In this document: positions 53,184-56,405 of the stretch, piece by piece
Layout of the letters: the number at the start of each line of letters is the position of its first letter
Numbering within the stretch: the first letter of the stretch is position 1
Assembly (NCBI GenBank): GCA_002401685.1
Contig: NVTU01000003.1
Span: 35,888-99,887, forward strand
Length of the DNA stretch: 64,000 nt
Direction of reading: 5' to 3'
DNA from: Kordiimonadales bacterium
GTDB taxonomy: Bacteria > Pseudomonadota > Alphaproteobacteria > Sphingomonadales > Kordiimonadaceae
Translations under genes and position numbers: made by a program
The notes under the pieces: generated by a model
Databases searched by the model: none
What the model was told of the DNA's origin: nothing
What the model saw: only the letters and a program-made list of their open reading frames with translations

Positions 53184-54074
53184 ATGGCCATGTTTGATAG
53201 TTCGGCTAATGAGTTCGCGGGCGATCCTGCCACAACCACTGATTCGAAGACTAGGACAGGTGACTTTACTGCCATTGTTCTCGCTGGATCACGTTCCACC
53301 AATGACCCTGTCGCTTCGGTTTTTGGTGCGCGTTATAAAGCATTGGTGCCCATCTGCGGTAAGCCAATGATTGAACGTGTGGTTGAAGCCCTAATTGGGT
53401 CTTCTTCTGTAAAAAGAATTGTAATTGTTTTTGAGTGTGAAAAATCACTTTATGCGTCGTGCCCTGACTTTAAAACATTGGCTGAGCAGATCGATATCTC
53501 TGTTGTTGCTTGTCGCGACTCAATTTGCCGCAGCGTAAGTGGTGCCATGGAAGCATCGGGTGCTGAGTGGCCTTATCTTGTTACTACAGCTGATCATGCA
53601 CTTTTGACGCCTCAGATCGTGAACGAGTTTTGTGACAATGCCAGAGGCCAAAGTGATATGGCCATTGGTCTTGTTGAGAAGAAATATCTTGACGAGAAGC
53701 ATCCTAATTCTAAGCGCACGTACCTCCCGTTTCGTGAAACAAAGCTTTCAGGCGCCAATCTTTTTGCCTTTATGAGCCCGAAGACAGTTAAGGCGATCGA
53801 ATTTTGGGGATCAATTGAACAGCAACGCAAGAAGCCTTGGCGGCTTTTCGCGCAGTTCGGGTTCTTGAATCTGGTTAATCTACTGTTGAAGCGTTTGACT
53901 GTTGATCAAGCTTTTGAGAAAGCATCTGAGCGGCTTGGTTTGACGGTACGTGCTATTCGGTTGCCGTTTGCTGAAGCTGCGATCGATGTAGATTCACCGA
54001 AAGATTTTGCACAGGTTACTGAGATTTTGAAGAACCGCGCGCAAGTGCTGGTTGCTTCTGCGACATCTGCCTAA
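53184..54074 (+). CDS. MobA-like nucleotidyltransferase
   Basis: A 296-residue protein with a GT-A-type nucleotidyltransferase fold. The N-terminal signature is altered from the usual GGxSxRMGxxK: here FTAIVLAGSRSTNDPV, then a lysine in YKALVPICGKPMIERVVEAL. The acidic metal-site region is VTTADHALLTPQ. The C-terminal part has AAIDVDSPKDF, typical for the DxD-like end of MobA/IspD relatives. The ATG at 53184 has AAGGAAAG upstream; an N-terminal extension of 20 polar residues remains. The nucleotide and acceptor are unknown: sugar, polyol and lipid headgroup phosphates are all possible. It directly precedes the dioxygenase/ATP-grasp fusion gene but a 141-bp leader lies between, so they may be regulated separately. 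Confidence 0.75.
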   Translation: MAMFDSSANEFAGDPATTTDSKTRTGDFTAIVLAGSRSTNDPVASVFGARYKALVPICGKPMIERVVEALIGSSSVKRIVIVFECEKSLYASCPDFKTLAEQIDISVVACRDSICRSVSGAMEASGAEWPYLVTTADHALLTPQIVNEFCDNARGQSDMAIGLVEKKYLDEKHPNSKRTYLPFRETKLSGANLFAFMSPKTVKAIEFWGSIEQQRKKPWRLFAQFGFLNLVNLLLKRLTVDQAFEKASERLGLTVRAIRLPFAEAAIDVDSPKDFAQVTEILKNRAQVLVASATSA

Positions 54075-54215
54075 ATTTCCTTAATCCATTACCCCTTTGG
54101 TTTGTTTAGCTAAAGGGGTGCATTCCTGTGCGTGTTTTGTTGGCAAGTCGTTGCCTCTGCACGGAAAACCCCTTAGGGTGGGTAACAATTAGTCGCTTAC
54201 CCCTAGGTGAATTTC
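54075..54215 (+). promoter_or_regulatory. structured leader with alternating ACCCCT/AGGGGT elements
   Basis: The 141 bases before the fusion gene contain ACCCCTTT (54091-54098), AAAGGGGT (54112-54119), ACCCCTTA (54168-54175) and ACCCCT (54199-54204). The single AGGGGT element can pair with any of the three ACCCCT copies. The last copy abuts the ribosome-binding site AGGTGA (54206-54211 region). GGGTAA (54180-54185) and TTACCC (54197-54202) form a further competing stem. The first pair forms an 8-bp hairpin with a 13-base loop but no T-run. This looks like a leader able to switch between structures; that function is inference. No known riboswitch class was recognised. Confidence 0.4.
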
Positions 54216-56405
54216 TTGGCAGTGCCCGCTCTCAATATTTTGGACTTCTATCATAATGGTTCGGCGAATATGCCTATGCTCGCGTGGCGTATTGCTCAGG
54301 CCCTTTCGAAGCCACCTTATTTTGTGAAATTATCTGGCCTGACTGTCACCGCCGCATCCGATGATTTTTTGCAAATCATTGAGCATATGGGCCGCAAGAG
54401 CGCGCATACATTAGCGGTAAAGTTCAAGAAAACATCGCACACTGATGTTATGATTAATACGGGCCAAGCTGCTAAGCAGCGGGCGGTTACAGCTTACAGC
54501 CGCACAAACCTGGCTCTAAAGCCCCACACTGACAGCAGTTATCTGCCTGTTCCGCATGAGTTTGTTGGGTTTTTGTGTATTACAGCCGCGGAATCTGGAG
54601 GCCATAATACGGTGGCAGTGGCAGACGATATCATTGCCCGTTTAAGGCCGGAAACAGTGCGGCTGTTGCAGGAAACGGTTTACCCATTCGGTCGCGGTGA
54701 TCATGCAGTTGTGTCTCGCACAGCCCCGTTTGAAATTCGGTATTACCGCGGTCAGATTGATCATGCTTTTACACGCGGTGCTAGTCTTGATACTTGCTAC
54801 CTACAGGCGCTTGATGAACTTGACGCTGTTTTGGATCTGGAAGCCAATGAAACCAAGTTCATGTTGGCGTGTGGCGAGGCGTTGCTGCTGAATAACAGGC
54901 GTGCGCTTCACGGGCGGTCGGGTTTTGAAGAAGGCAGCAGCCGATATTTTATTAGGCTACGCCAGTTTATGGACCTAGATCGCCTGGCCGTGATGAGCCC
55001 TTCATGGGGTAACCGGATTGCATCAGTGTTTAGCCGGAGAAAGCCAGGACGTCTTGCAATAGAACGACACGACATTAAAGAGGCTGGAGCTCAACAGGCA
55101 GTTCGGTCTTCGGCCGCTTCGGGAATGTTGGAGAATTACGAATATCTGCTTCAGGGTGATGTCGCCGATGCGGATATCATCGATGCAGGACGGAGCACTT
55201 TGCGGGCTGGACGTTTTATTGAAGCAAGGCGGTTGTTCGAGAGAGCCCTTGAGCAAGATGATCAGAATATTTCGGTTAAATTTTCGCTGTCGGCGATCTA
55301 TCAGTATCTAGGTGACGAGGCGGGATCAGAACAATTGCGCCAGAGAATAGCGCATCAGTCACCGTTCAACGGTACATTCACCAACACCGATGTGCCGAAA
55401 GTTCTTAGAGTTCGCGGTCTGAAGGATATCAAATATACCCTTATGAAAGGGAAACGAGGTTATAAAGAGACCCTTCAGAGGGGCCATTTTTCCTTGAAGG
55501 AGCTCTGCAATCTCCGTGACTATGAAACAGTGATGTTGAGTATTTTTGATGAAGAGGAAGATCATGTGCTTTCCTCTGATCACTTGCCGGATTTGATATT
55601 AAATACAATGTCTTGTGGTGATCGGATGCGAGGCGCGCTTACTGCACTAGATAGGTTGAGCCGCAAATACCCGGACATACCGATTATCAACAAGCCGGCT
55701 TTGGTTATTGCGACTAACCGCGCGGAAAATGCCGTTCGTCTTGATGCAATTGACGGGGTTATTTGCCCTAAGACGCTGCTTTTCACGTGGCATGGCGGCT
55801 GTGCAGCCAAGATGGCACAGGAAGTGATAGGCCAAGGATTTGAGTTCCCCATCATCTTACGGCCTATGGGCACGCACACGGGAAGCGGCGTAAAATTGGT
55901 GCACAGTACCCGTGAGGCTGAGAGTTTTTTCAATGCAGCTCCTGTGGGCGATGAATATTACGCCATTCAGTACCGGGATTTGTCTGATAAGCGGGGGCTT
56001 TTCGCCAAAACACGTTTGTTTTTTATAGATGGCACTTGTTTTCCTGTGGCTAGCCTCATGCACAACGGTTGGAATGTGCATTCAGGGGACCGCTACAGTG
56101 TGATGGATAAAAATATGTTTATGCGGGATAAGGAAGAAGCCTTTTTGGCAGACATGCCCACCGCATTTGGTGACAAAGCGGTAAAAGCCCTAGCTAAGGT
56201 TTATGACACTGTTAAATTGGATTTCTTCGGTGTTGATTTGATGCAGCTGCCGGATGGAAATCTCTTTGTCTTCGAGTGCAATGCTGCGATGCGGCATAAT
56301 TATGATCACGTGAAATCCTTTCCGTATACACGTCCACATTTGCAAAACATCTCAAAGGCTTTTGAAACAATGATACAGCAGCGCGTGGGTATTCTCGACG
56401 CTTAG
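54216..56405 (+). CDS. fusion protein: TauD/TfdA-like dioxygenase, TPR-like linker, ATP-grasp ligase
   Basis: A 729-residue cytosolic protein with three parts. Residues about 1-265 resemble Fe(II)/2-oxoglutarate TauD/TfdA-type dioxygenases. The iron ligands are His104-x-Asp106 (LALKPHTDSSYLP) and distal His232 (NNRRALHGR); Arg247 probably binds 2-oxoglutarate (RYFIRLRQF). Residues about 300-385 are TPR-like helices (AGRFIEARRLFERALEQDD). Residues about 485-722 look like an ATP-grasp fold: FPIILRPMGTHTGSGVKLV (Arg549 where a Lys is usual), ARVD-like FFGVDLMQLPDG and the metal-binding Glu687/Asn689 in VFECNAAMRHNYDH. The start is TTG 54216, five bases after AGGTGA; GTG 54207 would put that site inside the gene. 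It suggests a protein that both hydroxylates and ligates one substrate, carried or recognised through the TPR part. Substrate unknown. Confidence 0.75.
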   Translation: MAVPALNILDFYHNGSANMPMLAWRIAQALSKPPYFVKLSGLTVTAASDDFLQIIEHMGRKSAHTLAVKFKKTSHTDVMINTGQAAKQRAVTAYSRTNLALKPHTDSSYLPVPHEFVGFLCITAAESGGHNTVAVADDIIARLRPETVRLLQETVYPFGRGDHAVVSRTAPFEIRYYRGQIDHAFTRGASLDTCYLQALDELDAVLDLEANETKFMLACGEALLLNNRRALHGRSGFEEGSSRYFIRLRQFMDLDRLAVMSPSWGNRIASVFSRRKPGRLAIERHDIKEAGAQQAVRSSAASGMLENYEYLLQGDVADADIIDAGRSTLRAGRFIEARRLFERALEQDDQNISVKFSLSAIYQYLGDEAGSEQLRQRIAHQSPFNGTFTNTDVPKVLRVRGLKDIKYTLMKGKRGYKETLQRGHFSLKELCNLRDYETVMLSIFDEEEDHVLSSDHLPDLILNTMSCGDRMRGALTALDRLSRKYPDIPIINKPALVIATNRAENAVRLDAIDGVICPKTLLFTWHGGCAAKMAQEVIGQGFEFPIILRPMGTHTGSGVKLVHSTREAESFFNAAPVGDEYYAIQYRDLSDKRGLFAKTRLFFIDGTCFPVASLMHNGWNVHSGDRYSVMDKNMFMRDKEEAFLADMPTAFGDKAVKALAKVYDTVKLDFFGVDLMQLPDGNLFVFECNAAMRHNYDHVKSFPYTRPHLQNISKAFETMIQQRVGILDA

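Follow-up and report, generated by a model that had tools for sequence, protein, structure and literature searches.

Among ATP-grasp amino-acid ligases, RimK modifies ribosomal protein S6, and ArgX and LysX act on LysW. These enzymes, together with the dioxygenases BBOX1 and TmpA, are the closest described relatives of the two halves of a single protein encoded in a 64,000-nucleotide stretch of DNA from a marine Kordiimonadales bacterium (contig NVTU01000003.1, positions 35,888 to 99,887; hereafter the window). The protein, referred to here as the fusion, carries an Fe(II)/2-oxoglutarate (2OG) dioxygenase, tetratricopeptide repeat (TPR)-like hairpins and an ATP-grasp ligase in one chain, and is a real, conserved and probably bifunctional enzyme. 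By fold, the dioxygenase half lies nearest to BBOX1 and TmpA, followed by AsnO, clavaminate synthase, KDO1 and VioC, with KDO1 also matched by sequence (4.5e-6); all of these hydroxylate amines or amino acids in free form. The best nine matches of the ligase half are all to RimK, ArgX or LysX. The family is apparently undescribed as far as the open-access literature goes: a search of that literature, with subscription papers outside its scope, found no description of the ATP-grasp/TPR/TauD architecture and surfaced no studied family that shares it, in agreement with the original prediction, which was made from the sequence of the window and knew of no system of this composition.

Domains and active sites of the fusion

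The fused gene and its parts are arranged as follows.

54207..56405, + strand: fused TauD-TPR-ATP-grasp protein, 732 residues; GTG start, with TTG at 54216 a possible alternative
54207..54986, + strand: TauD/BBOX-type Fe(II)/2OG dioxygenase domain, residues 1-260
54525..54533, + strand: HTD iron ligands H107 and D109, both unchanged across all 18 dioxygenase rows in alignment A3
54909..54911, + strand: H235, the distal iron ligand, in an LHGR motif; 18/18 HxD-bearing rows of alignment A2
54942..54956, + strand: R246 and R250, candidate 2OG-binding arginines by family resemblance; 18/18 HxD-bearing A2 rows
54987..55118, + strand: linker, partly disordered in the model (predicted local distance difference test score, pLDDT, <50 at residues 277-309) and under relaxed selection (ratio of nonsynonymous to synonymous substitution rates, dN/dS, 0.43)
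55119..55376, + strand: TPR-like helical hairpins, residues 305-390; helices at 305-384 in the model, TPR_19 match at 332-385 below cut-off
55377..56402, + strand: pre-ATP-grasp and ATP-grasp ligase domain, residues 391-732
56274..56282, + strand: E690-C-N692, the ATP-grasp metal-binding ExN; E690 and N692 in 42/42 rows

The union of the three domains in one protein, as first proposed, was borne out by structure models and by Pfam, which places TauD at residues 47-251 (3.3e-19) and also gives a TPR match below threshold at 332-385 and weak matches to ATP-grasp. An AlphaFold2 model of the whole fusion, built from 42 aligned sequences, has a mean pLDDT of 87.1 and a predicted template modelling score (pTM) of 0.64, and a second model, of the C-terminal 343 residues (39 sequences), reaches a mean pLDDT of 91.1. 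These two confident models settle the boundaries of dioxygenase, linker, TPR hairpins and ATP-grasp. The dioxygenase half has the double-stranded beta-helix fold of the TauD superfamily, and the C-terminal half is an ATP-grasp fold with its metal-binding Glu and Asn. Searches of solved structures were swamped by TPR proteins when the full alignment of the fusion was used, and gave weak matches only with the ATP-grasp alignment.

Both active sites are intact and are conserved among relatives. HxD (H107, D109) occurs in 18 rows of the 42-row alignment A2, and H235, R246 and R250 are kept in all 18; H107, D109, H235 and R246 are invariant in A3. The HxD...H triad, whose loss in homologs had been named as a result that would refute the earlier interpretation, is therefore kept. 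The ATP-grasp residues R552, K601, R603, D677, E690 and N692 are present in every A2 row (42/42), and the near-invariance of G335 and A340 across the same alignment indicates that the TPR segment has been retained. Comparison with the copy from Kordiimonadaceae NORP254 (L107) reveals purifying selection on all domains, with a dN/dS of 0.093 overall and 0.43 at residues 261-320, ratios that are only rough because synonymous sites are close to saturation. Judged from these sequences, the fused gene is selected as one protein.

Relatives, ligase tree and partner genes

Within the Kordiimonadaceae, the fusion has a match in 16 of 29 genomes. The dioxygenase part is present in five of the 16 (G000, G013, G016, G028 and G008), the G016 copy being cut by a contig end and the G008 copy consisting of two adjacent open reading frames (ORFs); the remaining 11 match over the TPR/ATP-grasp part alone, G022 among them with 50 residues at a contig end. 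The wider order yields matches in 30/296 genomes, most of the additional ones over a single domain, and a scan of named genomes found 54 relatives. One-ORF fusions occur in cyanobacteria (Mastigocoleus, Xenococcus and other Xenococcaceae, Richelia, Rivularia and others), in gammaproteobacteria (Thalassotalea and others) and in alphaproteobacteria, and two-gene versions are found in Leptolyngbya-like cyanobacteria, Roseovarius and others. At an E-value of 1e-20, 11/388 genomes match in the class of Mastigocoleus, 10 of these with the dioxygenase part, and 12/369 in that of Thalassotalea, where the dioxygenase part is covered only in the query's own genome. The corresponding figure for the window's class, 21/385, counts the ligase family, since the alignment model largely omits the dioxygenase columns. 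Phage records gave no match to the fusion, and with the Thalassotalea protein as query 8 of 72,556 plasmid records matched, and in none of them did a match span 80% of the query.

For the ATP-grasp tree, filtering by length and discarding exact duplicates reduced 91 ligase-bearing ORFs to 73 rows. The apparent long fusions L250 and L257, which have no Pfam hit and look like ORF-caller frame artefacts in GC-rich DNA, were kept as rows and rejected as architectures. The TauD-linked relatives form a single 36-row clade (bootstrap 99, Shimodaira-Hasegawa-like approximate likelihood ratio test 97). A dioxygenase accompanies 35 of the 36 rows: 24 are fused and 10 adjacent, and in L104 it lies upstream in another frame, either as two genes or as one broken gene; none was found for L113. 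The motif HSG[DN]RY marks this clade, occurring in 33/35 dioxygenase-linked rows versus 1/38 others, that one being L113. The pair on the L120 contig, filed as the alphaproteobacterium Parvularcula, sits very close to cyanobacterial pairs on the tree, reflecting recent transfer or a binning error.

Outside the TauD clade, the ligase keeps other company. Eight rows from the window's genus (Kordiimonas) lie near an aminotransferase, a phosphoenolpyruvate (PEP) mutase and a phosphonopyruvate decarboxylase, the latter two exceeding the NCBIfam cut-offs TIGR02320 and TIGR03297 in the copy scanned; EDKx5N[ST] is found in 9 of the 29 PEP-mutase-superfamily loci examined. These compact loci (L024, L025, L026, L027, L028, L029, L030 and L032) combine the TPR-ATP-grasp gene with an opposite-strand aminotransferase I/II and the two phosphonate genes, an arrangement that suggests a 2-aminoethylphosphonate (AEP)-conjugating ligase. 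Upstream of the cassette in L024, L025, L027 and L029 lie TRAP transporter genes (DctM and DctP, identified by Pfam in L024) and a gene of ~800 residues (cluster c06). A deeper ligase branch (supported 100/100) has a pyridoxal phosphate (PLP)-dependent decarboxylase beside it or one gene off in four cases and fused in one, and an adjacent SerC-type transaminase in another; the fused case is a single ORF, L252:8124-10778(-), with the ATP-grasp of this family at its C-terminus. In L133, L142 and L144 the TPR-ATP-grasp gene lies directly 3' of an acetolactate-synthase-like thiamine pyrophosphate enzyme gene, and an acetolactate synthase small-subunit gene then follows it in L144. From three different partners we infer one ligase family that swaps its amine-supplying partner between branches, the source of amine being a hydroxylase in the fusion, PepM with Ppd and an aminotransferase in other Kordiimonas, and PLP decarboxylases in the deeper branch.

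Proposed activity and competing explanations

We propose that the fusion is a bifunctional amine-tailoring ligase, a hydroxylase joined to an amine ligase with a protein as possible acceptor, a reading that we regard as evenly poised. First, the N-terminal BBOX/TmpA-like domain would hydroxylate a small zwitterionic substrate, an amine or an amino acid, either free or once attached. Second, the C-terminal RimK/ArgX-like ATP-grasp would activate a carboxylate with ATP and link the amine to it as an amide. For both steps the fold and site are observed, and we infer the substrate of the first and the reaction of the second. In a third step, the weakest of the three, the TPR segment would dock the acceptor, for which the carboxyl terminus of a protein or carrier protein is the likeliest candidate, by analogy with RimK on S6 and ArgX/LysX on LysW.

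A secreted protein encoded nearby, of the repeats-in-toxin (RTX) or two-partner-secretion (TPS) type, may serve as the acceptor in some lineages. RTX, cadherin or TPS proteins lie near the TauD-clade rows L095, L099, L100, L101, L113, L114 and L122, and also near L125, L135 and L138 outside the clade. At an E-value of 1e-8, the threshold at which these counts hold, with weaker matches possible, the sole RTX-repeat match of G320 sits inside a 1505-residue protein adjoining the gene pair; the RTX matches of G329 (best 4 of 5) all fall in the protein beside the ligase, as do 5/7 of those in G323 (best 7 of 10); and G326 has one match, by count only. More speculatively, and with considerable doubt, the whole family might tag proteins by placing non-canonical amines on their carboxyl ends, the TauD branch using a hydroxylated amine, the Kordiimonas PepM branch AEP (giving a phosphonylated protein) and the PLP branch a decarboxylated amino acid, with secreted calcium-binding RTX/TPS adhesins as likely targets in some hosts.

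Several points weigh against this proposal. Substrate and acceptor of the fusion are predicted only, the pTM of the model leaves the arrangement of its domains open, and the TPRs may serve oligomerization. The PepM group is weakly supported as one branch (78/61). An RTX/TPS protein is nearby in only 7 of 36 TauD-clade rows (six by an exemplar search within 5 kb, plus L122), and that search found none around the window, L107, L020, L023 or the gammaproteobacterial loci. RTX repeats are also frequent in the cyanobacterial genomes, the eight searched having at least 9-51 matches each (E 1e-8), which makes the cyanobacterial neighbours weak cases, and much of the association may be chance. The neighbourhoods of the fusion vary by lineage, and no universal third gene was seen. 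Finally, the relatives of the dioxygenase act on free small molecules, which would also fit a free small-molecule product.

This last point leads to a possible, though on balance not expected, alternative, a small-molecule synthetase that releases a hydroxylated amino-acid amide or dipeptide to serve as a natural product or osmolyte; no protein would act as acceptor, and the TPR would only organize the enzyme. Against it stand the ligase half, whose best matches are protein- or carrier-protein ligases, and the conservation of the TPR across the 42 rows.

An improbable alternative is a system akin to graspetides, a class of ribosomally synthesized and post-translationally modified peptides, in which ligase and hydroxylase act on a short precursor. 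ATP-grasp enzymes do modify precursors in graspetides, some loci having TPR proteins, according to PMC8939145. However, the fold neighbours listed for the dioxygenase are small-molecule hydroxylases, and the short precursor ORF that the earlier note proposed to look for near the two window genes did not appear: comparison of the three gaps around them with L107, the only locus compared, gave no convincing small ORF.

A lipid-headgroup or phosphonate pathway, in which the gene upstream of the fusion would activate a phosphonate or polyol with CTP, is very improbable. That gene is the following.

53184..54074, + strand: MobA-like nucleoside triphosphate transferase (TTHA0179-like), a neighbour judged to lie outside the system

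In favour of such a pathway, the fusion of G013 is preceded by GDPD, PAP2 (named by eye) and MobA-like genes, the dioxygenase half resembles TmpA, and PntC-type MobA-like enzymes activate AEP, as stated in PMC6697681. The nucleotidyltransferase locus, however, is independent of the fusion. Its best match is TTHA0179 (2dpw, 2.1e-19), and it has relatives in 29/29 family genomes. Ten regions were fetched around such relatives, eight with a close relative and two with longer paralogs. The close relative adjoins GDPD and/or PAP2 in 8/8 regions, HflX being present in seven; the fusion has no match in any of the eight, and four of the genomes (G001, G010, G012 and G014) have no fusion match at all. 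These neighbours were identified by BLASTP matches to their counterparts in the window or in G013, and the names HflX, Hfq, MazG and PAP2 are presumptive. Among the loci read, the window, L107 and G013 are the sole cases in which nucleotidyltransferase and fusion adjoin. A pair formed by the two genes, as originally predicted, is thus not supported by the neighbourhoods and was rejected; the nucleotidyltransferase is probably unrelated and its adjacency positional. The earlier interpretation is supported in its three domains, its intact active sites and its combination of ligase and dioxygenase. Nor does the window copy find support for a phosphonate role: the best PEP-mutase hits of G000 (77% complete; one hit), G013 and G028 lack EDKx5N[ST], and just 4 of the 39 genomes of relatives have a strong hit (E <1e-80).

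Gene fusions can arise by accident, but a chance fusion of two enzymes from separate pathways is very improbable here, given purifying selection on all domains and a dioxygenase fused or adjacent in 35/36 rows over cyanobacteria, alpha- and gammaproteobacteria.

Other features of these neighbourhoods are recorded here. Between nucleotidyltransferase and fusion, a perfect 8-bp inverted repeat with a 13-base loop was seen by eye (window 54091-54119); terminator prediction did not call it. Two paralogs of the window's nucleotidyltransferase, L156:3617-5329(-) and L157:4597-6426(-), carry a C-terminal extension that, judged by eye from a motif, resembles a HAD-type phosphatase. On the opposite strand past the gammaproteobacterial fusions L108, L109, L110 and L116 lie NTP_transf_5, HprK-related kinase A, a ~95-residue protein that we take to be PqqD-like, and a further protein that begins with a twin-arginine-like sequence and has strongly acidic stretches and a strongly acidic tail; Pfam and NCBIfam assignments for this set come from the L108 copies. 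HprK-related kinase A was rejected as a partner, being above cut-off in 25/29 family genomes with or without the fusion and hence not specific. In each of L106, L108, L109, L116 and L123, a ~220-residue membrane-like protein (k022) lies near the fusion or split pair; the one member scanned had no Pfam, NCBIfam or PADLOC match, and k022 was set aside as a partner for want of a match in the 29 family genomes, a set with no positive control. Defence-system models gave no match for the three proteins submitted.

Comparison with known enzymes

The fusion and its relatives define a coherent enzyme family, apparently undescribed, in which a single chain offers two activities that can be checked; these, together with natural variants (fused, split and partner-swapped), make identification of the substrate practical. 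Should the acceptor be a protein, the reaction would amount to a novel type of bacterial protein modification, and the Kordiimonas cousins would place a carbon-phosphorus compound on protein.

BBOX1 and TmpA share ~20% identity with the dioxygenase half and differ from the window protein in that its dioxygenase is fused to a ligase. The alignment begins at BBOX1 residue 119, so the fusion has no counterpart of the BBOX1 N-terminal domain, and it misses the NCBIfam equivalog cut-offs of both families (43.5 vs 400 bits for TmpA; 28.7 vs 414.75 bits for BBOX). RimK and ArgX/LysX show 12-16% identity with the ligase half in the best rows; unlike them, the fusion has a TPR and a dioxygenase ahead of the ligase, and it misses the cut-off of the RimK family (TIGR00768, rimK_fam; 28 vs 143.4 bits). 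The Pfam R2K_3 gathering score is also missed (14.6 vs 26.3 bits), and the fusion retains ExN, which ExGD replaces in the R2K.3 clade according to PMC4431377. Also related are ATP-grasp proteins encoded on plasmids of Rhizobium and Paraburkholderia, recorded as 'RimK family' or 'tetratricopeptide repeat', whose C-terminal ligase is homologous to that of the fusion; they belong to the deeper branch, without TauD, and have SerC nearby in L170 and a PLP decarboxylase nearby in L171. The Kordiimonas cassette of TPR-ATP-grasp, aminotransferase, PepM and Ppd belongs to the same ligase family, on a separate branch near the TauD clade, and differs from the fusion in having no dioxygenase and in its dedicated phosphonate-making partners.

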